A stretch of 36,615 nucleotides of DNA from Leptolyngbya sp. CCY15150 (lineage in GTDB: Bacteria; Cyanobacteriota; Cyanobacteriia; RECH01): contig NZ_JACSWB010000077.1 in NCBI RefSeq assembly GCF_016888135.1, forward strand, positions 1 to 36,615. The letters run 5' to 3'. Position 1 is the stretch's first letter, and the number at the start of each line of letters is the position of its first letter. Shown piece after piece: positions 380-26,370 of the stretch. The notes beneath the pieces are model-generated. The model saw only the letters and a program-made list of their open reading frames with translations. It did no database searches and was not told the origin of the DNA. The position numbers and the translations under genes are program-made.

Positions 380-3300
380 TCATCGTTTTTCGTGAATCTG
401 AACATCAATTGCCGAATCGTCGCTGCGAACTTCGTAGTAACGCTCTGGCTTGCGATAAACATTCACCATTTGATGGCCGGTTGAGAAGGTGTTTTCCTCA
501 AGGTAATTTGCATTGCCCCAGATCATTTCCTCAATAGTACTGGACGCATGTTCAACGAACGCATCACCTGGCTTCTTCACAAGCCCTTCAAGCTTGGCAA
601 TTTTGTACAGATTTCTTACGCCCTCCGTTTCATCGTCCGGCATCACGATGAACAGGTAGTCCCGCGCTCGACTGATAGCCACATTCAGGATATTCTGCTT
701 ATTGAGGAACATCTGAGGGCTTGTAGAGATGGATGGTGGTGGATTAAAAACAGCAATGATGATGTCGCATTCGTCACCTTGGAAACCATGAATCGTGCCA
801 ACCTGAATCTCTACACCATTAGGCTTGGAAGCCCATGAGTCGTTTAGCCTACTCAATAGGTTTGCTTGGGCACGATAAGGGGCAATGACCCCTATGCGGA
901 ACTTATCTGCATAGCCGACCTGTATTTGTCCTGCAAGCCACCGAACAAACTCGAAAGTGAACAGTGCCGAATAGGTCTGATAGGGCGTTCCGCTCTCCAA
1001 CCGTTTCGCGCGGTAGATGCTTTCGTATTTGCTGACGGGAAACTTGATGAGGTTGATCGGTTGAACATCAATGTTGTTGAGATTCAGCGGGCGCTGCGTT
1101 TCAGGCGTGCGGTGGTGCTTCAAGATGCCGTCATAGGTGAAACGGCTGAAAATTTCGCCGATGGCTGGGATACTTCGGTATTGCGTTTCCAGATTCGTCA
1201 CGGAGTAGTTATGTGGCTCCGTAGCAGGCTTTGCAAAAGCTCCTGCCTTATTGAGGCCGACCAGCGTGTAGATGTTTTCGTCCTTCCATTGCTCAACTGC
1301 GACAATCGGTTCAATCTGGAAAGGGTCTCCGGCAACGATGAACTTCCCGGGCTTCTGACGATACAGCGGATAGATGATACTGGAAAGCGAAATCATCGAA
1401 GCCTCGTCAATGACAATCGCATCCCACTCCGTTTCGTACAGCTTCTTGCTACCATACTTGACCGCAAACCCATCGTAGGCGAAGCGGGCAATAGTCGTGA
1501 CTGTTACGGAATGACTCAGTGTGCCGATGTCAAAGGAGCGATCTCGCCACACGCCAGCTTTCTCGATACGTTCGTCTGCTGAAGTTCCGAAGCGAACCAG
1601 CCAGTTCAGATATGAAGTATCTGTACCCATCTTCTCTATGATGCGGGTCGTCAGCACATCCGCTGCCTTGTTGGTCGGCGTCAGAACCAAAACCCTTGTT
1701 GGCTCCGTTCCCTGCATCATAGGTATCAGTATCTTCTCTGCAAGGTGAGTCGTCTTGCCCGTTCCTGGTGGGCCGAATACAAACTCGATGTCGGGTGTCA
1801 AGCTCTCCTTCATGCCGAATTTTTCGTCAAACCCCAGCTCACGCAATCGCTCCAGCAACTCTTGCAACAGAAAGGACGGGTTCTGGACTTCGATACGTGC
1901 CTCTAATACCTCGCCCAAATCAATTCCGCTCAATTCATCTGCGGATACCAGTTTGCCGAGCAATGAGAACTCTCTGGCTGTAAATGATTCGATATGAAGC
2001 TTTCCTGTGCGGCCATTGCCAAAATCGAGATCCACACGCACACCCGAAAACTCTTCGATGGATTGCGGAATAAAGCGGCTCGGCTCTTTTAGGACAATGC
2101 TTCTGGACGATTGACTATCCGACTCCACTTTGCCAAAGCGGATGGAAATAGTCTTGCCGTCTGCATTCTTTTCGCTGCTTGCCATGCACTCCAGTTCCAG
2201 CAGGGCGAGAAACCAACCATAGCTGTAACGCGGCAGCGCATTAGCTTTGTCATGCAATGCCTGTTCGTGCTCTAAGCGATCAAGCTCACTGGCATAACGA
2301 TCTTTGGCGCGATCCAGCTTTTTGCCGTAGTTCACAGTTTTCGGGGTGTAGTCGTCCGCGTCTTCGTTGGCATCATTTGGCTGGGCGGATGGTGTAGGAT
2401 CGCTTTCCTGATGACCCGACGATTTGACGTGCTTGACGGATGGGCGACGGTTTTCAATTTCCTGCATCAGAGTCGATCCATGTAAAATTCTATCTCTACC
2501 GCTCTTACCTCTTGAGGGTTGAACGCTCTTTTTGCGTTTTGCGTCCTCAAGCGCAACTAAGATTTCATCTTCAGATAACCCTAATTGTGCGATTTTATCT
2601 GCCAACTCGATTTTTCGTACTTCCTCCTCGCTTAAATGCGCGGTGTCGTGAGCCTCATCTTGAATTTCTAAAAATTCAATGAGCGCCTTTGCCCTCTCAC
2701 TGTCTTTGTCATATTCGTCAGAGAGGGTTTGAATTGTGACAGCATCAGCAGAAACCAGTTCGCCTGTCTTATTGAGAATCCATTGTGCTGATAGCAGCCG
2801 CTGTTCTTCTGTGGATATGAAAAGCTCATCTTTACTATAGTAATAAAACCATGTATGCCGGCCACTCAATTTCTGAATGAGTCTCGGAAGCATTCGCCAG
2901 AGCAAGAGCGAACGAGCCTTGTTGATGTCAGAAATGATCTCCTCACAACCGTCTAGAATTTTATCTTCCAGATTGTGGTTGCGCCCCTCTGTCGATAGGT
3001 TTCCTTCATGCAATTCTTTCTTTGTAGGAGTCCAGTTATCATGAATTACTTTCGGCAGACTCGATACTCCTAGCTTCTCAAAAAAGACATAAAGTATTTC
3101 ATAGTCTTCTTTATCAACCATTTCATGGTATTCATCTAGTCGTAAAAACTGGGTATCCGGCTTGGTTTCAAACCACTCCTCTAAATCCTGAGTTGGTAGA
3201 TAAACATCTTCAGCCATACCGCGATAAACATTATCATCTCCAACCGTCACGTATAAGAGAAACTCCTTATCTTTTATCAGATCAATAAATTTTGACACCT

Positions 3301-5107
3301 CATTGTTTTTACACTCTTTAAAGTAGCGGAAAAACTTCTTAAAGTGCGGGGATGTATCAATTTCCTCGTCGGTGCTGTATGTCGGAAGAATCTTGTTGTA
3401 AATCTCGTCGCGGAGGCTTGGTTTTTTGATGCCAAATTTCTCGATGAACTCACGAGTGTCTTTGTCTGATAACAGATCTTTTTTGACAGTTATGTAGCCT
3501 TCAATATCGTCATCGGGAAGAAAAAGAACATGATGCCCACCATCGTCAAACGCCGGAACTGCATTGCCCTCTTGGTCGAGAAAAATAGGCTTATCCTTCA
3601 CGAACCTCTGGTAAGAAGCACGCTCGGAAAGGTAGGCATAAAGTTTGTGTAGCCATTGCTGAGATTGTGCGGCGATGAAGTCAGCGGTGATTTTTTTAAG
3701 CACAACTTCAGGGTCGAGGCTTGAAACAATCAGATTTGGCTCTTTACCAGACCAGCGAGTACCTCCATCAATGTAATCCGCTAACGGTTTATTGGATCTC
3801 TGGACTTCCTCCCTGCCAAGCCCCCGAAAAACCCAGTGAGCGTTCTGTGTACCAGTTAATTGCGCCAGATGCTCGTCAGAAAACAGTTCAACCAATCCGG
3901 GGTAAAATGCCCAATAAGAACAGCTCTTTGGTGAACACTCTCCATTAGCGGCTGGCAATAGGGTATCGGTCTGGAGTTTGTGCTTGATGGCAGTAAAGAA
4001 GGGCTCGAATGAAATCCTGCGTCTGTCGTCTAGAGCGCTAAATCTCGTTTCGTCATAGGGAATGATGTTAAGGATGCCATCGTCTATCAGCTTTTCATCC
4101 CGTAGTATGGGCAAACTGTCTGCGGCAAGTTGCGCCAACTGTTGAACCAATTCTTGGTTATGCTTTTTCCCAGCCTTGATTCCTTCCCGGCTATCTGTCA
4201 GAAGAAACGGCGCGTGAAGGAGGAAATTTAGATTCGTCACCTCTTTGGTAGGAAAAAAACAGAATGCAGGACGGTCAATAGGCATGATTCTTCCGTTCTC
4301 TCCCAAGCCATACCCAATGGAGCAGGGATGTCCGCTCTCGCTGTTTCGCGTGAACATCAACAAATTCTGAGAAGTCGTTTCGCCATTTACGACCAATGTC
4401 AGCGTGATCCACTGAACCGTTATATCTCCTTGCTCAATTTCCCGCGTAACTTCCTTGGTGTATTTACCCGTGACTTTCTCTGCTTCAAAGGACACAGATT
4501 CTAGATTAGAAAGGAACAGGACAGGAAACTCTAGAGCTTTTAGTTTCTCAAGAATTTCGTCATGACTCTCTTGGGGCTGTTTTTCCTGGTGGTCAAACGG
4601 AAAGAAGAACACCGTCTCTGAGGCTTTTCGCCAATCAAGGTCGGAATCCAGCCTGTGTGGCACGATGAAGCGTTCGATCTTGAACTGAATTTTCGGGTCG
4701 TAAATGTGCGGTGTTTGCGTATATTGAAAGACCGCCTTAAACCCGACGCCGAATTTTCCGATGGAAGCCTGCGTCTTGTTTGAATTGGCGATGGAAGTAA
4801 TGGCGTTAATATGCCCCAGAGTGCCGTTATGTGTATCCACTTCTTCGTTCTGTGGATTGGAAACGGTGAATCGGACAGAGCCGTTATGTGTGAAACAAAG
4901 TCCGCTTGCCCCAAGGCGGAATGTGGCAGTTGTAGCCTTGACATCATCTGCATTTTGCAGAAGCTCGTAGATGAAGTGCGCTTGATCGGAATATTTGTCC
5001 ACAACACTGCGCTGGACACCACGCATGGACGGCTTCTCCAGCATTTTGGAGCTGTCAGCGCGATCCTTCGTCAACGCATCGAACCACTGTTTATCTTGTT
5101 CAGTCAT
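380..5107 (-). CDS. Sacsin/HSP90-type ATPase fused to SF1 (UPF1-like) helicase
   Basis: A 1575-residue protein. Residues about 20-300 match the sacsin/'NO VEIN'-type GHKL ATPase fold: FIYELLQNADD near residue 48 is the Mg/ATP-binding N-box and SIGKFGVGFKAVF is the glycine loop. The middle (about 300-1050) is long and unassigned, with a charged coiled-coil stretch near 950-1010. Residues about 1090-1530 form a superfamily 1 helicase, with Walker A GPPGTGKTTH (about 1110), Walker B AIVIDEASM (about 1229), VAGDPFQIEPI, GTIHGFQGDECDI (about 1436) and NVAISRARDYLFIV (about 1472). Such fusions are known from bacterial conflict systems, where they are thought to sense or remodel nucleic acids; that role is inferred here. 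It is the last gene of a three-gene minus-strand run, 92 bp after its neighbour. The ATG at 5107 fits the start of the conserved domain; no strong ribosome-binding site is seen. Confidence 0.85.
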   Translation of the reverse strand: MTEQDKQWFDALTKDRADSSKMLEKPSMRGVQRSVVDKYSDQAHFIYELLQNADDVKATTATFRLGASGLCFTHNGSVRFTVSNPQNEEVDTHNGTLGHINAITSIANSNKTQASIGKFGVGFKAVFQYTQTPHIYDPKIQFKIERFIVPHRLDSDLDWRKASETVFFFPFDHQEKQPQESHDEILEKLKALEFPVLFLSNLESVSFEAEKVTGKYTKEVTREIEQGDITVQWITLTLVVNGETTSQNLLMFTRNSESGHPCSIGYGLGENGRIMPIDRPAFCFFPTKEVTNLNFLLHAPFLLTDSREGIKAGKKHNQELVQQLAQLAADSLPILRDEKLIDDGILNIIPYDETRFSALDDRRRISFEPFFTAIKHKLQTDTLLPAANGECSPKSCSYWAFYPGLVELFSDEHLAQLTGTQNAHWVFRGLGREEVQRSNKPLADYIDGGTRWSGKEPNLIVSSLDPEVVLKKITADFIAAQSQQWLHKLYAYLSERASYQRFVKDKPIFLDQEGNAVPAFDDGGHHVLFLPDDDIEGYITVKKDLLSDKDTREFIEKFGIKKPSLRDEIYNKILPTYSTDEEIDTSPHFKKFFRYFKECKNNEVSKFIDLIKDKEFLLYVTVGDDNVYRGMAEDVYLPTQDLEEWFETKPDTQFLRLDEYHEMVDKEDYEILYVFFEKLGVSSLPKVIHDNWTPTKKELHEGNLSTEGRNHNLEDKILDGCEEIISDINKARSLLLWRMLPRLIQKLSGRHTWFYYYSKDELFISTEEQRLLSAQWILNKTGELVSADAVTIQTLSDEYDKDSERAKALIEFLEIQDEAHDTAHLSEEEVRKIELADKIAQLGLSEDEILVALEDAKRKKSVQPSRGKSGRDRILHGSTLMQEIENRRPSVKHVKSSGHQESDPTPSAQPNDANEDADDYTPKTVNYGKKLDRAKDRYASELDRLEHEQALHDKANALPRYSYGWFLALLELECMASSEKNADGKTISIRFGKVESDSQSSRSIVLKEPSRFIPQSIEEFSGVRVDLDFGNGRTGKLHIESFTAREFSLLGKLVSADELSGIDLGEVLEARIEVQNPSFLLQELLERLRELGFDEKFGMKESLTPDIEFVFGPPGTGKTTHLAEKILIPMMQGTEPTRVLVLTPTNKAADVLTTRIIEKMGTDTSYLNWLVRFGTSADERIEKAGVWRDRSFDIGTLSHSVTVTTIARFAYDGFAVKYGSKKLYETEWDAIVIDEASMISLSSIIYPLYRQKPGKFIVAGDPFQIEPIVAVEQWKDENIYTLVGLNKAGAFAKPATEPHNYSVTNLETQYRSIPAIGEIFSRFTYDGILKHHRTPETQRPLNLNNIDVQPINLIKFPVSKYESIYRAKRLESGTPYQTYSALFTFEFVRWLAGQIQVGYADKFRIGVIAPYRAQANLLSRLNDSWASKPNGVEIQVGTIHGFQGDECDIIIAVFNPPPSISTSPQMFLNKQNILNVAISRARDYLFIVMPDDETEGVRNLYKIAKLEGLVKKPGDAFVEHASSTIEEMIWGNANYLEENTFSTGHQMVNVYRKPERYYEVRSDDSAIDVQIHEKR

Positions 5108-5199
5108 TGAAGTAGCCTAATCGCGAATATCAAATGTCGATTACTTTGGGGTCTTCCAAGCTTTTGGCAAATGCTCTGAATTACAGCCAATAGAGGCAG

Positions 5200-6642
5200 T
5201 CAAGCCATCATAAAATCGTCAAGTTCATCTGTGTTGTGGATGATATCGGATTCTGCAACGGCAAAGGCTCTAGCTAGATCAATACTGGATTGAAGGCGGA
5301 GCGCTGCATTGCGGTTTAGATCAAAGGCTGCATCCATCAAGTTGCCCAAGTCTTCCAGCATTGCTGTAATCTTCTGCAAGACAGCTTGATAGGTGGCTTC
5401 TATTTTTTGAGTCCATTGCTCCTGATAGTCTGCAATCCAGGCTTCAAGTTTGCCCGTTTGCTCTGTCAGATAGGTCTTACCAAAATCAATCACCATGCGG
5501 CTGGCTATGGTACCCAGCACGGCTCCAAGTACAGGGATTGGAATAACGGCTTGTCCAATGGCAGAGCCTACGGCTACCATTGCTGATTCGAGGCAAGCAA
5601 TTTGTCCTAGGGATAGAAATTCATCTAGGTCGATCTCTCCTTTGCGGTAGCGATCGGCGAGGCTTGCAACTGAGTAGCCTGCACTAACGACGGCTCCAGC
5701 TAAGGGCGCGGAAAGGTTGGCAAAGTTGGTTAGGGCATAAATGGAAGCACCGGAAATTCCTCCCATTGCGCCTCCTTGGGCAGCGGAGATGCCGATGTCT
5801 TGCCAGTCTTCTAGTTGGAAGTCACCGTGGAATGGATTTTTGCCGTCTCGTACTTTTTCAATGACTTTAAATGTAACTTTCAAGACTGCGCCAAATGCTG
5901 CACCCTTGATCGCAACTTGACCCATCTCGTGGAGATTCGCTTGATGCTCTAGTTCAATGCTTTGTTTCTGATCAGCGTTGCGATCGCGTATCTCATCTTC
6001 GTGCTGATCCAGCGTTTCGTGAATTTTGCCTTGCTGAACTTCGGCATAGGATGAAACGCCTGGCTTGACGACGGTTGTGAAGGGTTGACCGGTTCTTTGC
6101 TCAATAAGCTGGATATGCTCTTGAAGTTTGCGGACGGTTCGAGGGGCTAAGCCATCAACTGATTCCCCGTTGAGGACTTTTTCAATCACCGCATAGTGAT
6201 CGCGGGGGATATGATAATAGGAGCCGTCGCGTCCAAAGTTTTGGTATTTACTCATGTGTTCCAACACATGATCTAGATTCTTGGTCGCACCATTGATAAA
6301 TTTTGATTGAACTTCAACGCCGTCAACTAGGTAGTCAGCCGGTGCTGTCCGTCCAATACCCTCGAAGGTGGCGGTCGGCAAATTCCGCGCAATCAGATCA
6401 CGGGCATTGCGAATGCCGACTTCAACTTGTTCTGCAATTTCACCATGCTTGGTTAATGGACTCCCTAAGATGTGTTCGGGTACTCCTACAAAATCGCGCA
6501 CTTTGTCTATTTCCTGGAGTGCATCAATGAGGGCGTTTCCTTGGCGTCCGAGTGAGTCTTGCAGTTCTGTCCAGCGCTGATGGTTGACGGATGTAACGAA
6601 TCCACCAATCACCTGAGTTGTCTGGTGATGATTTTCTTTCAT
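5200..6642 (-). CDS. Glycine-rich membrane-associated protein with possible nuclease-like N-terminus
   Basis: A 480-residue protein I cannot assign to a named family. The N-terminal part has KHGEIAEQ (about 65-72), followed by PADYLVDGVEVQSK (about 101-114). This resembles the E...D...(E)xQ/K pattern of restriction-endonuclease-fold toxins, with D107, E110, Q112 and K114 as candidate site residues. Residues 205-245 are a charged helix rich in H, E and Q. Residues about 285-395 alternate small and hydrophobic residues (glycine-zipper-like, for example AAQGGAMGGISGASIYAL and PIPVLGAVLGTIASRM) and could insert in membranes. A helical tail follows. No signal peptide is visible. It starts 12 bp after the stop of the upstream gene (6655-7503), which also carries a glycine-rich hydrophobic core, so the two probably act together. 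The nuclease reading is tentative. Confidence 0.75.
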   Translation of the reverse strand: MKENHHQTTQVIGGFVTSVNHQRWTELQDSLGRQGNALIDALQEIDKVRDFVGVPEHILGSPLTKHGEIAEQVEVGIRNARDLIARNLPTATFEGIGRTAPADYLVDGVEVQSKFINGATKNLDHVLEHMSKYQNFGRDGSYYHIPRDHYAVIEKVLNGESVDGLAPRTVRKLQEHIQLIEQRTGQPFTTVVKPGVSSYAEVQQGKIHETLDQHEDEIRDRNADQKQSIELEHQANLHEMGQVAIKGAAFGAVLKVTFKVIEKVRDGKNPFHGDFQLEDWQDIGISAAQGGAMGGISGASIYALTNFANLSAPLAGAVVSAGYSVASLADRYRKGEIDLDEFLSLGQIACLESAMVAVGSAIGQAVIPIPVLGAVLGTIASRMVIDFGKTYLTEQTGKLEAWIADYQEQWTQKIEATYQAVLQKITAMLEDLGNLMDAAFDLNRNAALRLQSSIDLARAFAVAESDIIHNTDELDDFMMA

Positions 6643-6654
6643 GATGACAACTTC

Positions 6655-7503
6655 TTATGCAATTTTTTTCTTGAGAAGATACGACAGGGAGTGAACGTGA
6701 TTGATGAGGGCGGCTAGCATTTCTTTTTGTTCTTGGGAGAATTGTGAATAGTCGACAGGGGCTTGTTCGTAAAGCCTTAAAAGACACGATCGCACACCAT
6801 CGGCATGGCGGCGGGTCAGAATGGATAAGGCAGCGACTTCTTTGAAGGCTGATCTCAGTTTGTGAATTTCTGCTCTCAATTGCATATCAGCTTGGGTAGC
6901 TTCTTTGGCGACTTTTTCGTTCTGGCTATGGCTCCAGACGGCTCCACCGGCTATGGCTAAGCCGCCGATTGTCCAACCGATGGGCCCGGCGAGGGCAAGT
7001 AGGGCTTGTCCACCGGCCATGCCGGCTCCTCCTGCGGCGAGGGCTCCTCCTCCTAGCCACGCTAGGGCTGCGTTGGCAGCAGCGGCTCCAGATAATGCTG
7101 AAATGGCGGTTCCGGTAGAGGCAGTTCCAAAGGTGGTAGCGATCGCGATCGCGGCGGTGGGGCCCAAGGCGGCAACTCCGGCTCCGGCAGCAACGCCAGC
7201 GCCAACGGCGGAGTCTCGGATGGTTTCTTGTTGTCTGACTTCAAGTTCAATTTGACGGCTTAGGTCACGGAATTGGCGATATTCAATTTTATATTCGGCG
7301 ACGGTCTTATCAAATTCTTTGGGGGAGTTGGCCAGGATATTAACGTAGTCCTCGCATTCCTGAATGCAGGTTTCGGCGGTTTTTAGTCTTTGATGAAAGA
7401 GTTCTTCTGCTTTTTCGGTGACTTGAGTAATCCAATTTTGATAGGATGCCTGAGATGCTTCGAGATTCTGAATGGCTTGTTTTTTGGCGTTGTGATTCAG
7501 CAT
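6655..7503 (-). CDS. Coiled-coil / glycine-alanine-rich hydrophobic core protein
   Basis: A 282-residue protein with a clear three-part layout: a charged helical coiled coil (about 1-95), a long Gly/Ala hydrophobic segment (about 97-190), and a second helical region (about 195-282). In the middle segment AAGAGVAALGPTAAIAIATT and similar stretches give a glycine-zipper pattern. This helix-hairpin-helix design recalls alpha-helical pore-forming proteins and membrane tethers, but no family is recognised. It is the first gene of the minus-strand run, and its stop lies 12 bp before the start of the 480-residue protein. A purine-rich AAGGA lies 11 bases before the ATG. High GC in the Gly/Ala segment produces long shadow ORFs on both strands, which should be ignored. 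Confidence 0.75.
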   Translation of the reverse strand: MLNHNAKKQAIQNLEASQASYQNWITQVTEKAEELFHQRLKTAETCIQECEDYVNILANSPKEFDKTVAEYKIEYRQFRDLSRQIELEVRQQETIRDSAVGAGVAAGAGVAALGPTAAIAIATTFGTASTGTAISALSGAAAANAALAWLGGGALAAGGAGMAGGQALLALAGPIGWTIGGLAIAGGAVWSHSQNEKVAKEATQADMQLRAEIHKLRSAFKEVAALSILTRRHADGVRSCLLRLYEQAPVDYSQFSQEQKEMLAALINHVHSLSYLLKKKIA

Positions 7504-9069: not shown

Positions 9070-9908
9070 TGCGGACACAGTGGTTTTCCTGGATGGTGCT
9101 TAGCAGTCTGGTGTTGGGCATGACGGGCGCACAGGCGCAGGCACAGCCGTTGCCGCCGATACCCACTCCCTCAACCCAGCGGGCGATTCCCTCAACCAGT
9201 GTCGTGTCGCAGGAACGAGCAAGACAGTATGCATCCCCGGTCTGGCTCTATCTCGGTCGCAACAGTGTGATTGATTTTTCGGGGACGGATGAGGTGATCA
9301 CCTATGTGCAGCTCAGCGATGTCTCCCAAGTGGTCTACAACACCAATGCGCCCATTGACAGTGGGGCAGCTCGCACCATCATTCTGCGGCTGATTCAACC
9401 GCTGCACGTTGAAGGTACGTATACCGCCACCATTCCCAATTTGGTGGTGACGACGGTGGATCTCAGTGGACAGACCCATACCTATCTCTTCGATCTCTAT
9501 CACAGTCCAGATCTAGTTCCCGATGCCGATGACGCCAGCGGCATTGCCATCATGCCCGCACCTGATGTCCGAGACATTCAGTTGAGCCATCAGAACCCCA
9601 CTCAACCCAATATCATCCGCACGGACGCGGGCGATGCCACGCTCAACCATCTTGAACGGGGGCTATCGGTTGCCATTGAGGCGGACTATACACCACCAGG
9701 TGATCCCATTGTTTTGGCGGTTCGAGAAGCGATCGCCTTGGCACGCAATGGCACGCCCATCCGCACGGCCGCTCGACAGCTTCACATTGACTTGGCAGTG
9801 CTGACGTCGTTAGGGGAACTGGGCATTAATGCCAATGGCGAGACGGATGACGATATCCCTGTCCTGGAGCTATTGGAGATTCAAACGGACGTTGAGGAAC
9901 GCTTGTAA
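9069..9908 (+). CDS. Exported VirB9/TraK-like conjugation protein
   Basis: A 279-residue protein if started at the ATG at 9069-9071, which overlaps the VirB10-like stop (TAATG). An upstream start at 9048 is possible but would precede the signal sequence. The N-terminus is a clear signal peptide: MRTQW, a hydrophobic stretch, then AQAQAQ as the likely signal-peptidase site. Residues about 55-150 (LYLGRNSVIDFSGTDEVITY through TIPNLVVTTVDLSG) form a beta-rich domain similar in style to the N-terminal domain of VirB9/TrbG or TraK, which contact VirB10 in the outer-membrane core complex. That assignment comes mainly from position between VirB10-like and VirD4-like genes plus the fold style, so it is moderate. 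The gene overlaps the next by TAATG, indicating translational coupling. Confidence 0.65.
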   Translation: MRTQWFSWMVLSSLVLGMTGAQAQAQPLPPIPTPSTQRAIPSTSVVSQERARQYASPVWLYLGRNSVIDFSGTDEVITYVQLSDVSQVVYNTNAPIDSGAARTIILRLIQPLHVEGTYTATIPNLVVTTVDLSGQTHTYLFDLYHSPDLVPDADDASGIAIMPAPDVRDIQLSHQNPTQPNIIRTDAGDATLNHLERGLSVAIEADYTPPGDPIVLAVREAIALARNGTPIRTAARQLHIDLAVLTSLGELGINANGETDDDIPVLELLEIQTDVEERL

Positions 9909-11686
9909 TGCTGTTGGCAAATGTATGGACTGAGCCATGGGTCGAGGCGTGGCAGGTCATCAAGGACATTCTTGGCTCGCCTCGCGGGATGCTCCTGCTG
10001 GGGTTGATCCTTGTGATCTATCTCTTGAGTCTGTTGGCTCCGTCTAGACAACATCTCACGTCGGGTCGCTTTGCCCAACGGGGCGACAAGCTCAAGGCTA
10101 GTCGTCAAGCCTATCAACAACTCAACCGTGGTGATGCCGATGAGGTGGTGCTCTGGTGTGGCTCACCGCCAGATGCGCTACACAATGGTCTGATGGCTGG
10201 TCTGGCCACTGCCGTGACGGGGCAACCGCCCACGGTTTACGTGCCCGATGCGAATCGTAGTGCCGTAGTGATTGGCAAGGCCGGATCTGGGAAAACCTTT
10301 TCGGTCATCGACCCCATGGTGGCGTCAGCCATTGAACAAGGACATCCCATTTTGCTGTATGACTACAAGGCGGATGCCTATGGGAAGGGTGGACAAATCA
10401 GCTACTTGGCGACGCTAGCAGCTCGCCATCAGTACAATGTCCAAGTGTTTGCGCCGGGGCGTCCCTATAGCTGCATCATTAATCCGCTTGATTTTTTGCA
10501 GGACGCGAACGACAGCACCACGGCCGGTGTGCTCGCAGAGGTGTTTCATCGCAACCTCACCCGTGGCGGTGGCAAAGCGGATGCCTTTTTTGGCCCAGCG
10601 GGACAGCGGCTCATCCAAGCCCTGATTCAGTTTGCTAAGTCTACCCAATATCCCGATCTGGCCATGGCGTTTTGTGTGGTGCAGTTGCCCAATTTAGTCC
10701 AGCGGCTGTCCTATGCCGCTCAGCAAGAGCGATTACCCTATTTTGTTCAGGTGAATTTTGCTCAGTTCATCAGTACTGGTTCGAGTGAGAAAACGGCGTC
10801 TGGAATTCTAGCCACAGCCAGTGATGTGCTCACGCGATTCATGGCTCCTGACCTATTGCAATCGCTCTTGGGGACAACCAATGTCTCTGCTATCCTCGAA
10901 CGCAAGGAACTATTGGCCTTTCAATCGGACATTTTTCGCCAGGATGTGATCAATCCCCTACTAGCAGCCATCATCAATGTCGTTGTCAATCTCAACTGTT
11001 CGGTGCAGCGACAGGCTCCCTTCATTTTTAGTGCGGACGAATTTCCCACCATCTACATGCCGCAGGCTCCCAATTGGCCCAACCAACATCGCTCTAAGGG
11101 CTTTACCGGCATCTTTGGCTTTCAGTCGTTCCCCCAAATTGTTGAAACCTATGGGCAAGAGCAAGCCAAGGCACTCCTCTCAGCTTGCAGCACTCGCTTC
11201 TGGTTCAATCCCGGTGATGTGCAAACCGCTCAGCGCTACAGTGATGAGCTAGGTGAAACGGAGGTCACCTTCAGAACTCACTCCTACAGCCGCAGTCGCG
11301 GCGATGACTGGGGACGTAATCGTTCCACGTCAGAGCAGGTGCGCACCAAGAAGTTGATGACGCCCGATGAAGTCATGCGGTTTGGCGTCGGTGAATGCCT
11401 TTACATCAATCCAGCCTTCAATCAATACCCCATTCACTATGAACAAGTCCCGATCCCTAAACGCGATCGCCGCCTCAAAAAGGACTGTGAAGGACTCTGG
11501 GAAACCATTCGCGACCGCATGATACGCAGAGAACATAGCCGCCGACCCAATCTCGATATGGAAGACCAAATTCGCATCCGACTTAAGGAGGCCGATCGCC
11601 TGCTCCCAATGCCGCCAGAGGAAGGGGAAGACGCACCACCACCTCAAAAGCGATCTGCTCAAACCATTAATCTGCCTGAGTTTTAG
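9908..11686 (+). CDS. traG: VirD4/TraG-type type IV coupling protein
   Basis: A 592-residue coupling ATPase that links the relaxosome to the type IV secretion channel at the inner membrane. One transmembrane helix is seen at residues 28-45 (MLLLGLILVIYLLSLL). Walker A is VIGKAGSGKT (121-130), and Walker B lies in FIFSADEFPTIYM (about 371-383). Further conserved segments include LLYDYKADAYGKGG and STRFWFNPGD. The length is normal for the family. The start overlaps the previous stop as TAATG (9906-9910). The C-terminal about 140 codons (from 11258) are the source of two further tandem copies downstream. No relaxase is present in the window, so this is a partial transfer region. Confidence 0.9.
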   Translation: MLLANVWTEPWVEAWQVIKDILGSPRGMLLLGLILVIYLLSLLAPSRQHLTSGRFAQRGDKLKASRQAYQQLNRGDADEVVLWCGSPPDALHNGLMAGLATAVTGQPPTVYVPDANRSAVVIGKAGSGKTFSVIDPMVASAIEQGHPILLYDYKADAYGKGGQISYLATLAARHQYNVQVFAPGRPYSCIINPLDFLQDANDSTTAGVLAEVFHRNLTRGGGKADAFFGPAGQRLIQALIQFAKSTQYPDLAMAFCVVQLPNLVQRLSYAAQQERLPYFVQVNFAQFISTGSSEKTASGILATASDVLTRFMAPDLLQSLLGTTNVSAILERKELLAFQSDIFRQDVINPLLAAIINVVVNLNCSVQRQAPFIFSADEFPTIYMPQAPNWPNQHRSKGFTGIFGFQSFPQIVETYGQEQAKALLSACSTRFWFNPGDVQTAQRYSDELGETEVTFRTHSYSRSRGDDWGRNRSTSEQVRTKKLMTPDEVMRFGVGECLYINPAFNQYPIHYEQVPIPKRDRRLKKDCEGLWETIRDRMIRREHSRRPNLDMEDQIRIRLKEADRLLPMPPEEGEDAPPPQKRSAQTINLPEF

Positions 11687-11707: not shown

Positions 11708-11733
11708 AAACCGATAAAACGTTTTATCGGTTT
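11708..11733. repeat. parS-like palindrome 1
   Basis: A 26-bp perfect palindrome with core GATAAAACGTTTTATC, 22 bp after the traG stop. It is one of five copies lying between traG and parA. A terminator is unlikely because there is no GC-rich stem and no T-run follows. Confidence 0.65.
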
Positions 11734-11753
11734 ATAGACATTCAATGGGTGCA

Positions 11754-11779
11754 AAATCGATAAAACGTTTTATCGATTT
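11754..11779. repeat. parS-like palindrome 2
   Basis: A 26-bp perfect palindrome with the same 16-bp core as copy 1; its centre lies 46 bp from that of copy 1. The second traG-tail copy starts immediately after it. Confidence 0.65.
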
Positions 11780-12124
11780 ACGGAGATCATCTTTAGACCT
11801 CACTTCTACAATCTCAGAGATGACTGGGGACATAATTGCTCCACGTCGGAGCAGGTGCGCACCAAGAAGTTGATGACACCGGATGAAGTTATGCGATTTG
11901 GGATCGATAAAACGTTTTATCGATTTGTCGGTGAAGGCCTTTACATTAGTCCGGACTTCAAGCAGTACCTCATCCACTATGCACAAGTACCAATCCCTAA
12001 ACGCGATCGCTACCTCAAAAAAGAATGTGAAGGGCTCTGGGAAACTAGTCGCGATCGCGCGATAAAACGGGAAAATAGTCGCCAAATGCTATCGTCTCAA
12101 ACGATCATTCTGCCTGAGTTTTAG
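11780..12124 (+). pseudogene. Duplicated traG C-terminal fragment, copy 2
   Basis: It is homologous to the last part of traG but diverged and shortened. The protein-level match runs from RTKKLMTPDEVMRFG to LPEF and the TAG at 12122-12124. Relative to the parent it has an in-frame 24-bp insertion carrying a palindrome (residues IDKTFYRF) after MRFG, and it has lost the RRPNLDMEDQIR...PPPQK block. A GTG at 11855 could start 89 residues, but there is no promoter or ribosome-binding site and no ATPase domain. It is treated as a non-functional copy. Confidence 0.75.
11903..11924. repeat. parS-like palindrome 3, inside a coding copy
   Basis: A 22-bp perfect palindrome with the common core, lying inside traG copy 2. 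Comparison with the parent gene shows that 24 bp (11903-11926) were added without breaking the frame. Confidence 0.65.
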
Positions 12125-12149
12125 CACTAAACACTATTTCTACTAAAAC

Positions 12150-12167
12150 CGATAAAACGTTTTATCG
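12150..12167. repeat. parS-like palindrome 4
   Basis: An 18-bp perfect palindrome with the common core, in the tail after the stop of traG copy 2. Its left flank resembles palindrome 1 and its right flank resembles palindrome 2, which suggests recombination between copies. Confidence 0.65.
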
Positions 12168-12171
12168 ATTT

Positions 12172-12750
12172 ACGGAGATTATCTTTAGACCTCACACCTA
12201 CAGCAGCAGTCGCGGGGATGACTGGGGGCGTAATCGTTCCACATCAGAGCAGGTGCGCACCAAGAAGTTGATGACACCCGATGAAGTCATGCGGTTTGGC
12301 GTCGGTGAATGCCTTTACATCAACCCAGCCTTCAATCAGTACCCCATTCACTATGAACAAGTCCCGATCCCCAAAAGCGATCGCCTCCTCAAAAAGGAAT
12401 GTGAAGGACTCTGGGAAACGATTCGCGACCGCATGATACGCAGAGAACATAGCCGCCGACCCAATCTCGATATAGAAGAACAAACTCGCCGACGACTCAA
12501 GGAGGCGGATCGCTTACTGCTGATGCCGCCAGAGAAAGGGGACAACGCGACATTACCTCAAACGTGATCGGCTCAAACCACTAATCCTGGTTGACTGACA
12601 AATCTTTTTGCTTAGGCTGGGTTGAGCAACGTGAAACCCATAGCCAGCATAGATTCTTCTGGGTTACGCTGACGCTAACCCAACCTACGCGAGAATCAGG
12701 ATTGCAGGAGTTTTGTCAGCCAATAAGCCACTAATCTGCCTGATTTTTAG
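12172..12750 (+). pseudogene. Duplicated traG C-terminal fragment, copy 3, split by a MITE-like element
   Basis: It matches the parent from FRPHTYSSSRGDDWGRNRSTSEQ onward. An ORF from the GTG at 12253 ends prematurely at TGA 12565-12567 (104 residues). Beyond the TGA the copy continues (SAQTT), is interrupted by 141 bp at 12587-12727, and resumes as LPDF with TAG at 12748-12750. It has no ATPase domain and no start signal, so expression is unlikely. It keeps the RRPNLDIEEQ block that copy 2 lost. Confidence 0.75.
12587..12727. mobile_element. MITE-like element with 9-bp target duplication
   Basis: A 141-bp element is flanked by direct repeats CCACTAATC (12578-12586 and 12728-12736). Its ends are inverted repeats matching at 14 of 18 positions (CTGGTTGACTGACAAATC against the complement of the right end). 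The interior includes a TGGGTTA...TAACCCA hairpin of a kind common between cyanobacterial genes. It encodes no transposase, so it would need one acting in trans. The insertion is proven by comparison with the parent traG tail, where the flanks are contiguous. Confidence 0.75.
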
Positions 12751-12775
12751 CGCTGAAAACTGTCTTTACTAAAAC

Positions 12776-12793
12776 CGATAAAACGTTTTATCG
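12776..12793. repeat. parS-like palindrome 5, upstream of parA
   Basis: An 18-bp perfect palindrome with the common core. It ends 74 bp before the likely parA ATG, so it may also act in parAB autoregulation. Confidence 0.65.
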
Positions 12794-12867: not shown

Positions 12868-13512
12868 ATGATCATAACTACGGCATCAGACAAGGGCGGC
12901 GTAGGCAAATCTACGCTATCTTTTCATCTAGCCGCCGCTATTGCAGAGTTAGACAACGCCAAGGTTTTGCTGGTTGATGGAGATGCGAATCGCTCCGTAT
13001 TAAGCTGGTCGGAGAGATTAGACGCCAGCAAGCTACCTTTCACCGTTGTGGGTGAAAAACACGCCTCCAAATGGTTTCAGAAGGGAAATCAGGCTGATCA
13101 CATCATCGTAGATACCCAAGCCAGACCTAGTGATGAAGACCTTAAAGATTTATTGGAAGACACAGATCTTCTACTTGTACCCACAACAGCTCAAGCTTTG
13201 AGTCTCGATACTCTACCTCAATTTATGAAGCGCTTATCTGTACTGAGTGGAGATGTTCCCTTTACGCTTTGCCTAACGATTGTGGATACTCGCACCAAAG
13301 ACGAACAAGACGCCCGTGAATTTTTGAAAGCCCACGATCAACCAGTACTGGATGGTTTCATGCGTGCCTTCTCTGCTTACACCAAAGCATCAGCCCAAGG
13401 TGTTCTGGTTCGGGATGCTCGAACAGATTCAGGCAGAAAGGATAGTAATGCAGGGATTGCATGGAATGATTGTGTCGCGATCGCTAAGGAAATTCTGGAG
13501 GGGATGGCGTGA
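12868..13512 (+). CDS. parA: ParA-type partition ATPase
   Basis: A 214-residue Walker-type ParA ATPase, which binds the nucleoid and moves plasmid copies apart with ParB. The deviant Walker A motif is ASDKGGVGKST (about 6-16), with both the signature and catalytic lysines. VLLVDGDANRS and HIIVDTQARPS match the A' and B motifs. The family starts closely before the P-loop, so ATG at 12868 (MIITTASDKGG) is preferred over an in-frame TTG at 12853. It has no N-terminal DNA-binding extension, typical of type Ib or VirC1-like ParA proteins. Its stop overlaps the parB start (GTGA, 13509-13512). Five palindromes immediately upstream are candidate centromere sites. Confidence 0.92.
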   Translation: MIITTASDKGGVGKSTLSFHLAAAIAELDNAKVLLVDGDANRSVLSWSERLDASKLPFTVVGEKHASKWFQKGNQADHIIVDTQARPSDEDLKDLLEDTDLLLVPTTAQALSLDTLPQFMKRLSVLSGDVPFTLCLTIVDTRTKDEQDAREFLKAHDQPVLDGFMRAFSAYTKASAQGVLVRDARTDSGRKDSNAGIAWNDCVAIAKEILEGMA

Positions 13513-14486
13513 GCAAGTTTAAAAATATTGGTTCTTGGAATAGCGTGACCCAAGCAGCTAAGCCAAGTGAACCAGAGACTCATCATGAAACATCGCCACT
13601 AGATCACCAGAAACTGGTTGAGGGCGATCTAAATCGCATTCGCAGAGGACGAAAGCAGTACCGATCCCATACCGAAGAAGAGCATATTCAGCAGCTCATG
13701 GCGAGTATTCGGGAACATGGCTTTACCGGTAGCTTGCCTGTTATCGCTATCAAGGATAAAGAGTATGACTATGAGTATCTAGGGGGACACACAACTGGAG
13801 AGGCGCTCAAACGTTTGGGTTACACCAAGGTGTTGCTGTCTGTAGAAGATGTCGATAACCCGCTGGCGATCGCTGAATTTTCCTATCAACTCAATGGTGC
13901 AAACCGTCCGCTGAATGCGCTAGATGATACGCTTGCCATCCTTGACATTTTGTCGGAAGCACTCTCGTCACAGATGGGGACGGTTGAGCCAGATGAAATT
14001 CCAACACTCATTCGACAAATTGCACGGGACACCGCAAAGGTCGATACCACAAAGGTTAATTGCATTCAAGAAACCTGGGAACGGAATCAGTTCGCTATTA
14101 CGATTAAAAGTTTTGCCGCCAGTCGTTTACCCTTACTGCAATTATCTGATGATCTCAAGCAGGCAATCCAGCACGGTATTTCTCCCGTGAGTGCGCTTGA
14201 AATTAACAAAGTTGAGGATCCAAAGATCAGAGCAGCACTGATTGAAAAGGCAATGCAGATGTCAGTTGCTGAGGTGAAGCAAGCTGTTCGTGAAGCGACT
14301 AAAGCCGAAATGCAACCTCGTCCAGCACATCAGCAAGAATGGGAACCCTTAAAAGTTTTCCGGTCAATTGGTAACAAGGCCAAGAAAATTGACTTTGACG
14401 CTATTCCTACCAGCAAGAAAAAAGAACTGACCAAAGCCATTCAGCGTGTTCAGGAACTGATTGAAGCGATTGAAAAAAAATCTTAG
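13509..14486 (+). CDS. parB: ParB-like partition protein
   Basis: A 325-residue partner of ParA. Residues about 30-110 resemble the ParB/Srx N-terminal domain (GDLNRIRRGRKQYR, IQQLMASIREHGFTGSLPVIAI). The box usually written GERRxRA is replaced by GGHTTGEALKRLG (92-104), so CTP handling may differ from canonical ParB. Residues about 155-270 are helical and probably bind DNA. The C-terminus (about 295-325) is a charged helix that could dimerise. The GTG start overlaps the parA stop by four bases, showing translational coupling. The likely DNA target is the palindrome array upstream of parA. Confidence 0.85.
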   Translation: MSKFKNIGSWNSVTQAAKPSEPETHHETSPLDHQKLVEGDLNRIRRGRKQYRSHTEEEHIQQLMASIREHGFTGSLPVIAIKDKEYDYEYLGGHTTGEALKRLGYTKVLLSVEDVDNPLAIAEFSYQLNGANRPLNALDDTLAILDILSEALSSQMGTVEPDEIPTLIRQIARDTAKVDTTKVNCIQETWERNQFAITIKSFAASRLPLLQLSDDLKQAIQHGISPVSALEINKVEDPKIRAALIEKAMQMSVAEVKQAVREATKAEMQPRPAHQQEWEPLKVFRSIGNKAKKIDFDAIPTSKKKELTKAIQRVQELIEAIEKKS

Positions 14487-14898: not shown

Positions 14899-14936
14899 CT
14901 CTCAACCTAATCAAAACGTTTTGATTAGGTTGAGAG
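14899..14936. repeat. 38-bp perfect palindrome sharing the parS-like centre
   Basis: Two 19-bp arms are fully complementary with no loop, centred between 14917 and 14918. The central ten bases AAAACGTTTT equal the centre of the five palindromes upstream of parA, but the outer bases differ. There is no T-run and the next gene is convergent and distant. It could be a further partition or replication site, or a transcription stop. Confidence 0.6.
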
Positions 14937-17727: not shown

Positions 17728-18240
17728 ATGCTCAAGCTAAAGCGTGGCAACCTCCTAGACGAAAAAACAGAAGCCCTCGTGAACACCGTCAACTGCGTGG
17801 GCGTCATGGGCAAAGGAGTGGCGCTGCAATTTAAGCGAGCGTTTCCAGACAATTTTAAGCAGTATCAAAAGGCGTGCAAAAACAACAAGGTCGAGCCAGG
17901 CCGCATGTTTATTGTCTCCACCGACTCGCTGCTCAACCCTCGGTATATCATCAACTTCCCCACCAAACGCCACTGGCGACAATCCTCCCAGCTTGACGAT
18001 ATCAAGACTGGGCTAGCCGCTTTAGTAGCAGAAGTTCAACGATTGGAGATTCAATCCATTGCCATTCCCCCCTTGGGCTGCGGCAATGGGGGGTTAGACT
18101 GGGCCGAGGTCAAACCACTCATTCTAGAAGCCTTCAAGCCATTGCCCAAGATTGAGGTGATTGTGTTTGAACCGGCCGGGGCACCCTTAGTTAAAAGCGA
18201 GGGCGATCGCCACCTCAAAGCCGCCGATGACGGCCTTTAG
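17728..18240 (+). CDS. Macro-domain protein, DarG-like ADP-ribose hydrolase
   Basis: 170 residues that are almost entirely a macro domain. GNLLDEKTEALVNTVNCVG (7-25) carries the ADP-ribose-binding asparagines N19 and N22, GVMGKGVALQFK (25-36) is the glycine loop, and PPLGCGNGGLDW (114-125) is the phosphate loop. This set is closest to DarG/TARG1-type domains that remove ADP-ribose from DNA bases. Full DarG proteins carry a second domain that binds DarT; it is missing here, and no DarT toxin is present in the window. It may be a solitary protective hydrolase or the rest of a lost DarTG pair. The start ATG directly follows a repeated AGTACAAT; the first copy of this repeat (TACAAT) could serve as a -10 element. 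Confidence 0.88.
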   Translation: MLKLKRGNLLDEKTEALVNTVNCVGVMGKGVALQFKRAFPDNFKQYQKACKNNKVEPGRMFIVSTDSLLNPRYIINFPTKRHWRQSSQLDDIKTGLAALVAEVQRLEIQSIAIPPLGCGNGGLDWAEVKPLILEAFKPLPKIEVIVFEPAGAPLVKSEGDRHLKAADDGL

Positions 18241-20719: not shown

Positions 20720-21640
20720 ATGAGAAATGTCGCAGTCAAAGAAAAACCCAAGGCTACGGCGGTCTTCGCTCGTCATGAGACCTTTCATCCTCGCTTTGGC
20801 TGGCTGAAAAAGGGCTATGACCTGGCAGTAGCAGATCCCAATATCTTCTTGAGAGAAGACGCGCCAGTGCTGCTTGGCGTAGGAAAGAACATGGTGCGCT
20901 CAATTCGCTACTGGTGTAGCGCATTTAAGGTGCTGGTGGAAACTGATCGCCAAACTTTGCCGACCGGGCTAGGTCAACAACTGCTGAGTGACGAGGGCTG
21001 GGACCCATTTCTAGAAAATCCGGCCAGTCTCTGGCTGCTCCACTGGAATTTACTCAAAGCCCCCTGCACTGCTACAGCTTGGGCCTATGCCTTTGGTGAA
21101 TTTCAGGCGGCGGAGTTTACCCCAGAGCACCTGGTAGATGACTTGCGAGACTACGCCAATAGCTTTAGTGCCAACATTGCCGACTCGTCTCTACGAAAGG
21201 ATGTGAACTGCCTCTTACGCATGTACGCTGACCAGGAAAGCAAAAAGGGGCCGACCGAAGATTCTATCGACTGCCCCTTCACTGCCCTGCGGTTGCTCTA
21301 CAGCGTGGGGGATGGTAGGCGCTACGAGTTTCAGGTTGGCCCCAAGGAGACGTTGCCTGCTGAACTGGTGGTGGCAGCCTGTCTAGAATTTGCCGGGATG
21401 ACTGAAAATGAAAGCTCCGCCATGGGCGTTTCCCGCTTGGCTTATTTAGCAGGCAGCCCAGGGCGGGTGTTGAAACTTTCGGAGGCAGCGATCGCCGAAG
21501 CCATTGAGCACGTTGCCCGGCAACGCAACGACCAAGAAGATCTGTTCATCTCAGACAGCGCTGGATTGCTACAACTTCAATACGAAGGCGATCCGCTGGA
21601 GATGTCTGAGGCTATTCTTGACGAGTATTTTTCCGCCTAG
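20720..21640 (+). CDS. sspB: SspB-like DUF4007 phosphorothioation protein
   Basis: 306 residues with the DUF4007 opening: HETFHPRFGWLKKGYDLAV (residues about 15-33), then LGVGKNMVRSIRYWCSAF. In single-strand phosphorothioation systems SspB is described as the DNA-nicking component that works with the SspC ATPase and the SspD sulfurtransferase. The ATG at 20720 directly precedes the conserved block. It is followed after 45 bp by sspC on the same strand. The family assignment is firm from sequence; the nickase role comes from published work on the system and no nuclease motif is read directly. Confidence 0.88.
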   Translation: MRNVAVKEKPKATAVFARHETFHPRFGWLKKGYDLAVADPNIFLREDAPVLLGVGKNMVRSIRYWCSAFKVLVETDRQTLPTGLGQQLLSDEGWDPFLENPASLWLLHWNLLKAPCTATAWAYAFGEFQAAEFTPEHLVDDLRDYANSFSANIADSSLRKDVNCLLRMYADQESKKGPTEDSIDCPFTALRLLYSVGDGRRYEFQVGPKETLPAELVVAACLEFAGMTENESSAMGVSRLAYLAGSPGRVLKLSEAAIAEAIEHVARQRNDQEDLFISDSAGLLQLQYEGDPLEMSEAILDEYFSA

Positions 21641-21685
21641 TTGCGTGTAATCATGGGTTGGTATGTAGTCGCGAGTTGATAGGTA

Positions 21686-24600
21686 GTGAGTTCTCAACGT
21701 TTAGCCGAGTTTCTGGGTGTTAACCGCCGCTATGCCCGCTCTATCAACTTAGAGCGCGATTTTGACGCATCGGAGGCGGTAGAGGGCTACATTCTCACCG
21801 ATCGCGCAGTTGATGCCCTGCGGCGAATCTTGGCGTCGATGTTTGGCCGTAAGCGCACCACGGCCTGGACGCTGACGGGGGTCTATGGCACAGGTAAATC
21901 GGCCTTCGCCCACTTTTTGACCAGCCTGTTTGGACCGGTGGAAAGTCCGGCGCGGCAACTTGCCTTAGACATTGCCCGACATAGCCTCCCGCTCGACAGC
22001 CCAGAATATGAGGCCCTGCAAAAGAAATTTCCCCAGCAGGGCTTGTTTCGAGCGGTGGCCACCGCCCAACGAGAGCCGCTGAGACACACGTTGGTTAGAG
22101 CCCTCACTAAAGCTACCGATGACTTTTGGGCATTGGGATGCGAGCCAGAGGTTGTTAGAAAGCTAACCGACTGGGAAGGCGAGCTAGCGTTTAACGAGGC
22201 TTCCTTTGGCGATCGCGACATTCTCAACCTGATCAAGCAGCTCTCTAAAGTCGTCGATACCGACATTATTCTCGTCATCGATGAACTGGGCAAATCTCTA
22301 GAGCACGCCACTCAGAACCAGGGCACGGCTGATCTATATCTGCTTCAGCAGCTCGCAGAGCTGTCGCGCAAGAAAGACACCCGACTTTATATCTTTGGTC
22401 TGCTGCACCAGTCCTTTGCCGACTATGGTCAGCGGCTTGCAGCGGTGGAAAAAAACGAATGGGCCAAAATCCAAGGACGGTTTGAGGATATCCCCTTCAC
22501 CGAGTCGTCTCAGCAGATGCTGCGGCTGATGGGGCAAGCCATCAATCGATCCCAGGCAGAAACCCTCACGTTCCCGGTGCGACAGCTCACTCAAGACTGG
22601 TGCGCCGTCCTTAGCGAGAAAGCCAACCTCACGGAACTCTCCCCCAAACTCATAGAGGCCACCTACCCCCTCCATCCCCTGGCGGCTATGGTGTTGCCGG
22701 AGCTGTGCATTCGCTACGCCCAGAACGATCGCTCTCTGTTTACGTTTCTCACCAGTGCCGAACCTCACGCGTTCCAGGGATTTTTAGAGTCGGCGGAGAT
22801 TGAAGAAATTCCAATTCCAGGCGTCGATGGAGCGGGAGTAAAGGCTTTGCCAACTCTGAAGCTGCACCACCTCTACGACTATTTTGTGGAATCCCTTGGG
22901 GCGGGTATGGGATCTCGTCCGGGGCTACAGCGTTGGCTAGAGATCCAGACCCTGGTGGCCGACGCTCAGCACCGGGGCGCAGATACCGTGGTTCTGCTCA
23001 AAACCATTGGCTTGCTTAACCTGGTGACCAGTACCGGCCTGTTTCGCGCCACCCGCCCCCTAGTGAAATTGGCCTTGGTCGATCAACCCGACACCGCCGC
23101 CCTGGAGCATTGGGAAGAGCAGATCAACGTGGTCACCCACCAGCAGGGCATTGTCACCTATCGGCGGGCGGTGGATGAGCTGCGCCTGTGGGAAGGGTCT
23201 GACTTTGACGTGGAAGCGGCGATCGCCCAATACATCGCCAAAGACACCCTGCCCCTGGCCGACCTGCTCACCGAGACCTATCCGCTCAAGCCCATGGTGG
23301 CCCAGCGCCACAGCTACCGCACCGGCACCCTGCGCTATTTTGAGCGCCACTACTTAGCCAGCAGCAGCACTTTAGAAACCCTAGCCTGCACCCAGGCCGA
23401 TTGTGATGGCGTTGTAGCCTACTGGCTGAGCGAAACGACCCCTAGCTCGGTGCCCGCCCAAACCATAGATGGCAAGCCCCTGTTAGTCATTGCGGCGGCG
23501 AACCTACCGCTGTTAACTATTCGGGCCAAGGAATATCGTGCCCTCTGCCAAATCTATAGCCGGGAAAGCGCCCTGCAAAGCGATAAGGTGGCTCTGCGAG
23601 AAGTGCGTCATCGCCGCTTGCAGCTCAAGCAATTGCTAGATGACACCCTCTCCCAGGCGTTTAACTTTGGCACCCACCACAATGCCTGCTGGGTCGAGGG
23701 CAAGCCCCAGGGCATCGGTAGCGTTACGGATTTTAATGCCCTGCTGTCGGCGGTGTGCGATCGCACCTATCCCAAAACCCCCGTCCTTTGGAATGAGCTG
23801 ATCAACCGCCGCACCCTCACATCCCAAGGGGCCAAAGCGCGCCGAGTGCTGCTCGAAGCCATGCTAGAACAACCCGAGATTGAGCGCCTGGGGCTGGAGG
23901 GCTATGGGCCAGAGGTAGCCATGTACTATTCCGTACTCCAGCAGACCGGCATTCACCGTCAAGAGCTAGACGAATGGGGCTTTTACCCGCCGCGCCCATC
24001 CTCTCAGTCTTCTTCTTCTAGCACAGGAGCAACGAGAACTCTCCCCTCCGGTTCCCCTCTCCCTGGGGGAGAAGAGCTAGGGATGAGGGCCACTCTTGGC
24101 CAATCAAACCTTGGCCCCATCTGGACAGCGATCACCAAGTTTTGCCTCGGGGCCACCGCTGCGCCCTTATCTCTCGGCCAGCTTTACCAGACGCTCAACG
24201 CTCCGCCCTACGGCATGAAATCAGGCGCAATTCCGGTGCTGCTGGCAGCGGTATTGCTGCACTACAGTGATGAGGTCAGCGTCTACAAAGAAGGCACCTT
24301 TATCCCGGTGTTGGGGCCAGAGCATTTTGAGCTGCTGGTGAAAGATCCCGCCCGGTTCTCGGTCAAGCACATTGAAGTTACCGGGGTGCGTAGCCAGGTC
24401 TTTCGTGAGCTAGAAGAGATTTTGCGGGGTGGCGTGGGAAAACCCCACCGCCAGTCGAAGGCGCGAAACCTGACGGTGTTGTCGGTGGTCAAGCCGCTGA
24501 TTCAGTTTGTGCGCAAGCTGCCCAATTTCACGCTCAAAACTCGTCGCATTAGTGGGCGATCGCGTGCTGTGCTGCAAACGTTGCTCCATACCCAAGAGCC

Positions 24601-25333: not shown

Positions 25334-25577
25334 GAACCATGCGGCCACTCAAGCGTCCTGTAAAGCAGATTGACCCACCCCGGCCCGAGACATGCTAGAC
25401 GAGGTGTTTAGCGCGCAACCCTGCATCGGGCGCGAAAACTGCATATCTACCAGATGAGATTAAAGGTAACCCTGTAGGGGCAAGTCTTCTGAAGCAATGC
25501 AACATTCTAGGCTATTGACTGATGATCAAACCCAGCCCCAGGGTACCCTAAAGCAAAGACACCTCCTAAGCAATCCC

Positions 25578-26370
25578 ATGCGCCCGATCGCAGATCTTCT
25601 CGATTTCCTCACCCACCAGATGTCGATGCAGGCGGCACGAGTAGCCAGTGGTGATACTGCACCTGCTGACGCGAGGGGGGCTGGCTACTCGTGCCGACCT
25701 AGCCCGCACCTTGGGTGGGTACGACGAGGTGGGAGCAGAGCATTGGGATCGGGTTTTGATGGACAATCCTAAGCGCTGGTTAGTTGGAAAGCATCAGGTC
25801 GTTATTTATGACAAAGACAACCAGACTTTTTTACTCCCCTTCGACCTGTCCGATGAGCAAGCCGTTGCCGAAGCCCAACGTATCTGCGAAACCGCCATTT
25901 TGACTTGGCTCCAGCGGCGCACAGCCGATGGCAGTCTGGATGATGCCGAAATTTTGCGCCATTACCGGGTGCTGGAACTGGCCAAGCATGGCGATCGCTA
26001 CCACCTGCCCAACCCCGATGGCGAAGCCCAAGATATTGCAATAGATGAGTTTGCCATGGCTGCTGCCACCACTTACCTACACCAATGCTACCCTACCGAA
26101 AAGGTTATTCAGCAGCCCTACACCACTCCAGGATTTGATATCCTAGTGGGTACAGCCCAAGCTCCGGTAATCTATGGCAAAGTAAAGGGAACACTAAAAC
26201 CAATGTCGTCGTTTACCCTATCAGAAGGTGAGCGGCAATTTGCGATAGACCATAGCAATCAATACCAGTTGATGATGGTCTATGCCATTGATCTTAACCA
26301 AGAAACATGTGAAATAAAAGTTCATCAAGGAGCGATAAAGCCAAGCTCATTTTTGTTGTCACTGCTATAA
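25578..26370 (+). pseudogene. DUF3883-type protein gene between sspC and sspD, frameshifted
   Basis: The ATG at 25578 opens MRPIADLLDFLTHQMSMQAA, a fitting N-terminus, but the rest of the protein (VVILHLLTRGGLATRADLARTLGGYD...) is in another frame, open from a GTG at 25648. One extra base near 25647 separates them. The C-terminal domain GFDILV...YGKVKGT...FTLSEGERQFAIDHSNQYQLMMVY has the layout of DUF3883, a restriction-endonuclease-fold domain seen in defence genes. The EVKGT signature expected there is KVKGT, so the catalytic acid seems lost. Lying between sspC and sspD, it may have been an accessory subunit. The downstream part alone could still be made from GTG 25648. Confidence 0.7.
25633..25696. 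repeat. 16-bp perfect inverted repeat at the frameshift
   Basis: CGGCACGAGTAGCCAG (25633-25648) is the exact complement of 25681-25696, with a 32-bp loop. The left arm coincides with the point where the reading frame shifts. The repeat is inside coding sequence, so it is unlikely to be a terminator. Confidence 0.8.

Follow-up and report, generated by a model that had tools for sequence, protein, structure and literature searches.

A five-copy palindrome array beside parAB as a candidate plasmid centromere in Leptolyngbya sp. CCY15150

The window, by which is meant the whole stretch of DNA analysed (36.6 kb), is an entire contig of the draft assembly of Leptolyngbya sp. CCY15150; no overlap pointing to a circular molecule was found between its two ends. 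On its plus strand lie an intact traG gene for a type IV coupling protein (9908-11686; Pfam TraG-D_C, 1.5e-28), a parA gene (12868-13512), and a parB gene (13509-14486), with a palindrome array placed between traG and parA. The genes upstream of the array, namely traG and two more, stand in the same order as in Halomicronema CCY15110. Elsewhere in the window, homologues of SspB, SspC, SspD, SspF, SspG, and SspH are encoded in this order at 20720-36338 (PADLOC E-values 1e-113 to 0), representing a DNA phosphorothioation defence system. A DarG-like macrodomain protein of 170 aa is encoded at 17728-18240 (PADLOC 4e-81), while the minus strand at 380-7503 carries a TmtA/MkoA-like helicase protein of 1575 aa (PADLOC) and a PDC-M09B candidate defence protein of 480 aa (PADLOC 2.4e-200), neighboured by a 282-aa protein.

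The array was first noticed from the letters of the sequence alone, in a preliminary description that reported five perfect palindromes sharing one core. This was borne out by a search of the window, in which the 16-mer GATAAAACGTTTTATC occurs in five exact copies starting at 11713, 11759, 11906, 12151, and 12777, with no sixth copy at up to three mismatches; at that tolerance only 0.18 matches are expected by chance, and none of 100 shuffled sequences reached five. Extended to their maximal perfect length, the palindromes P1 to P5 measure 26, 26, 22, 18, and 18 nt, respectively, the last two reaching about 26-28 nt (27 nt for P4) if one broken pair is allowed. P1 (11708-11733, AAACCGATAAAACGTTTTATCGGTTT) follows the traG stop codon by 21 bp, P2 (11754-11779, AAATCGATAAAACGTTTTATCGATTT) comes shortly after it, and P3 (11903-11924), P4 (12150-12167), and P5 (12776-12793) are spread over the remainder. 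The end of P5 at 12793 lies 74 bp before the likely parA ATG at 12868, exactly the spacing given in the preliminary description, and a conserved promoter-like stretch, CTGCTACAGTA, is found downstream of it. All five do lie between traG and parA, as described there, but this interval is not plain intergenic DNA: it is made up of two degenerate repeats of the traG 3' end and an insert resembling a miniature transposable element (MITE).

The proximity of P1 to the traG stop raises the question of whether the palindromes act on the traG transcript, as terminators or RNA hairpins, and P1 does fold well as RNA (-15.7 kcal/mol, z -4.2). A terminator search, however, returned no terminator-like match at any of the five copies, P5 folds to merely -6.9 kcal/mol (z -1.5), and there are relatives in which the site lies inside parB or in which no traG is detected. 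The terminator reading was rejected on the blank search and the weak fold of P5, and its probability is regarded as negligible.

Outside positions 11713-12792, the 5.75-Mb genome contains no exact copy of GATAAAACGTTTTATC and one weak match with two mismatches, and the 16-mer is absent from all 58 related genomes searched. An occurrence scattered through the chromosome with no link to parAB, which had been named at the outset as the observation that would speak against a centromere, was looked for and did not occur. Among named genomes, the 18-mer form gave 12 matches, three of which are cyanobacterial (Leptolyngbya SIOISBB, Leptolyngbyaceae SM2_5_2, and Halomicronema CCY15110), and parA adjoins the site in all three; the nine others fall in bacteria such as Sphingobacterium and Vibrio and are presumed to be unrelated or due to chance. 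Matches to the 16-mer are also present in viral contigs.

The array consists of the native traG end and two decayed copies of it on the plus strand, here called B and C. Copy B (11780-12144) is 75% identical to traG in a gapped match over 11780-12083, and copy C (12172-12586) is 90% identical, also in a gapped match. Each copy starts directly 3' of one palindrome and extends to the next, so that the palindromes stand at the copy junctions (P4 at that between B and C), with the exception of P3, a 24-bp insertion within copy B that has CGATTTG microhomology on both sides. Between P4 and P5, at about 12587-12735, an element flanked on both sides by ACTAATC, with 27 matches in the genome including its own copy, interrupts copy C and looks like a MITE. 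The array arose from an ancestral locus with one or two sites, as the neighbouring traG 3' end was duplicated repeatedly and the site along with it. This coincidence of palindromes with duplication junctions, together with the insertion of P3 within a traG copy, is also what would be expected if the duplications had been driven by the palindrome, acting as a recombination site or as a small mobile element. Against that stand the lack of any occurrence elsewhere in the genome and the fact that CGATTTG microhomology suffices to explain the P3 insertion, which indeed looks like a microhomology event between two CGATTTG words.

Comparison with other genomes bears directly on the same question. ParB orthologues were found in five other genomes (77, 69, 62, 46, and 45% identity), and in all five a palindrome lies immediately upstream of parA, at the position held by P5, with a common AAAACGTTTT core and symmetrical flanks. 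The Halomicronema CCY15110 locus presents traG, two sites, parA, and parB in the order seen in the window. Because three further orthologous loci (L037, L038, and L039) keep the site at parA with no detectable traG, the palindrome follows parA and not traG; moreover, in distant relatives the sites vary in spelling but occupy a single constant codon position of parB. The recombination-site reading was rejected on the grounds that the site tracks parA, and a mobile or recombinational origin of the palindrome is considered very improbable. The more distant of these orthologues carry CAGAAAAACGTTTTTCTG, and therefore the half-site is variable, whereas the core and the symmetry are retained. A search of genome contigs with the window ParB returned no relatives, and PLSDB holds only distant ones at a maximum of about 35% identity.

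The two proteins conform to a partition system. ParA is a small Walker-type ATPase without an N-terminal HTH (Pfam CbiA, 8.6e-11); its deviant Walker A motif, KGGVGKST at 12892, agrees with KGGxxK[S/T], and it matches NCBIfam ParA_partition at 1.1e-24, yet below the family cut-off. ParB combines a ParB-CTPase fold, a central HTH, and C-terminal helices. Its N-domain (Pfam ParB_N, PF02195; 2.1e-7) scores 31.3 bits against a cut-off of 26.3, while the score for TIGR00180 (28.1 bits) is below the cut-off of 58.45. The AlphaFold model has a pLDDT of 88, and its best Foldseek matches are Noc, ParB, Spo0J, and KorB (1e-9 for Noc/ParB). With a symmetrical cis site linked to parAB and apparently cognate to ParB, the locus has the composition of a type I ParABS system. 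A second palindrome of other spelling, perfect over 38 nt (CTCTCAACCTAATCAAAACGTTTTGATTAGGTTGAGAG), ACGT-centred and with the AAAACGTTTT core, lies at 14899-14936, 413 bp beyond parB. The central 20 nt of this palindrome, TAATCAAAACGTTTTGATTA, are identical to a site that lies within a parB gene of another genome (G010); in its own genome it occurs once.

Whether such sites form a wider class was addressed in a survey of 48 ParB loci drawn by similarity to the window ParB, in which perfect palindromes of at least 18 nt centred on ACGT were sought in an interval reaching from 2.5 kb before the start of parB to 2 kb after it. Palindromes of this kind, 18-42 nt long, were present near parAB at 36 of the 48 loci, against an average of 0.03 loci in dinucleotide shuffles, and they numbered 56 in 212 kb near parB as opposed to three in 403 kb farther off. 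Twelve loci possess none; two of these (L045 and L052), whose ParB P motif reads GETR, have instead two copies each of the TCGA-centred palindrome TTAGAAGATCGATCTTCTAA upstream of parB, which is a sister site type. Two site positions dominate, either about 700-1100 bp before parB, which is just upstream of parA, or inside parB itself, where the centre falls on a codon boundary (phase 0) in every case, at N/V or D/V codons in the linker between ParB_N and the HTH. After removal of near-identical ParBs, half-site similarity was correlated with ParB identity (Mantel r = 0.41, with none of 5000 permutations as high), a correlation that partly reflects the common descent of sites and genes.

The genome of Leptolyngbya sp. 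CCY15150 itself provides a telling comparison, since four of its ParB loci have distinct ACGT palindromes. Those of the other loci are TTCCGACAACGTTGTCGGAA, TAGGAATAACGTTATTCCTA (in several copies), and TGTGGAATAACGTTATTCCACA, with half-sites TTCCGACAAC, TAGGAATAAC, and TGTGGAATAAC; a fifth ParB-like gene, on another contig (C136), has no ACGT-type palindrome nearby. Distinct spellings within one cell are as expected if the sites must not cross-react. Taken together, the covariation of palindrome and ParB and the differing spellings in the same genome argue for the ACGT palindromes of cyanobacterial ParB loci being a replicon-specific parS family, as judged from sequence, and not a single odd motif.

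It could still be proposed that the palindromes are operators only, through which ParB or another repressor controls parAB in the manner of KorB in RK2, with no role as a centromere. The location of P5 just before parA and upstream of CTGCTACAGTA would suit an operator, and KorB is among the structural matches of the ParB model; nevertheless, four of the five sites are 0.7-1.1 kb from parA amid decayed traG copies, and a site inside parB, as in many relatives, makes little sense as a promoter operator. A purely regulatory role is accordingly held to be improbable, although less so than the two readings rejected above.

The reading favoured here, at a probability of about 0.9, is that the five palindromes constitute the parS centromere of the plasmid carrying this contig, with ParB binding, partition, and autoregulation being what we infer from them. 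The sequence itself shows that the sites exist, that they are confined to this locus, are conserved along with parA, and vary together with ParB, that the traG end was duplicated, and that a ParB fold is predicted for the protein. The original proposal of a candidate parS beside parAB has gained from the confinement of the 16-mer to this locus, its constancy with parA in orthologues, and the ACGT equivalents at distant ParB loci, and the suggestion of a plasmid-specific ParABS system from the distinct ACGT palindromes of the four ParB loci in the same genome. Mechanistically, a ParB dimer would use its central HTH domain to bind each of the symmetrical sites, and ParA-ATP would carry the ParB-parS complex over the nucleoid, such that daughter cells inherit the plasmid. 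Binding at P5, 74 bp ahead of parA, probably serves in addition for repression of the parAB operon by ParB. An ACGT centre is shared across the wider family, and the outer half-site would confer replicon specificity, by which several ParABS plasmids could therefore coexist in one cell.

Several known systems may be set beside this one. In the chromosomal ParABS systems (Spo0J/ParB and Noc, with parS TGTTNCACGTGAAACA), the ParB fold with an HTH and a palindrome with an ACGT centre are shared, whereas the outer half-site is wholly different and the array departs from the 16-bp consensus; the early impression that the core is unlike chromosomal parS holds good, as just the central ACGT is in common with TGTTNCACGTGAAACA. 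The parABSm system on pTT27 of Thermus thermophilus HB27 (PMC4409726, PMC10085754) also comprises a parA-parB operon on a large plasmid with a palindromic, replicon-specific parS, and its ParB belongs to the same broad family (29% identity). Gel shifts show ParBm binding to a palindrome that lies within the parBm gene itself (PMC4409726). The published parSm, however, is one 14-mer, AAGGACGCGTCCTT, in parB, as opposed to five upstream sites in the window, and the HB27 ParB retains GERR where the window ParB has GHTT. At the conserved N/V codons of HB27 parBm (+480), a pattern search found the near-perfect palindrome AGGGACAACGTTGTTCCT, and a perfect 26-mer stands at the N/V codons of parB in Thermus brockianus; AGGGACAACGTTGTTCCT may be a further parSm, in which case AAGGACGCGTCCTT may not be the sole Thermus site. 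Plasmid pAQ6 of Picosynechococcus PCC 7002 resembles the window in its small ParA, its ParB, and several identical ACGT-centred palindromes, TACCCATAACGTTATGGGTA, near parAB, but differs in its half-site, in having one copy within parB, and in its canonical GERR motif. The window ParB also lacks those codons of the linker in which the internal site is placed there and at other loci.

The departure from GxxR in the P motif of Box II sets the window ParB apart, together with five relatives, GHTT being found in 6/6 members of this clade and an R-bearing GxxR in 43/43 other ParBs surveyed. The arginine of GxxR is required for nucleotide binding in the ParB-CTPase fold (PMC12704722). Box III is also altered, since in place of ENxxR..LN..EE the clade reads LNGANRPLNALDDT or HNAASRPLNALDDT, EN having become LN or HN, so that neither motif is as in chromosomal ParB. 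The clade is seldom met: five members were found in 65 genomes of the family holding the other known members, only the present genome has one among 386 across the phylum, and a clade-profile search of viral contigs found no members. These changes make the window system a variant ParABS, possibly one that lacks the usual CTP clamp, and loss of CTP control in the clade is a reasonable prediction from the altered motifs, other nucleotides or chemistry being possible. More tentatively, and at somewhat under even odds, the members of the clade, with GHTT for GxxR, LN or HN for the EN of Box III, and the linker site lost, may keep the ParB-CTPase fold and parS while no longer binding CTP in the usual way; some other switch, or binding to the array, would then load them on parS, and in the window the multi-copy array would replace CTP-driven spreading. 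Against the idea that five sites make up for absent CTP-driven spreading counts the presence of only one or two sites in the clade relatives. ParA-ParT-parS of the Streptomyces plasmid SCP2 (PMC12260392) offers a precedent for a CTP-independent partition protein, as suspected for the window ParB, and for a short parS (18 bp), yet ParT is devoid of any CTPase domain, whereas the window ParB keeps the fold with the motif changed.

Cyanobacterial plasmid partition sites have been hard to find because they are unlike known parS, and no earlier description of a partition-site rule for these plasmids or of the GHTT ParB clade was found in the open-access papers searched. The value of the finding is a general site rule and an unusual ParB clade. 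By this rule, a long perfect ACGT-centred palindrome, either upstream of parA or at the N/V codons of parB, predicts partition sites from sequence, which would explain how several ParABS plasmids are maintained in one cell. The rule also gives ready-made sites for tagging DNA in cyanobacteria and for shuttle vectors that are stably kept there, and the GHTT ParB clade offers a natural test of whether ParABS can work without the CTP-binding arginine.
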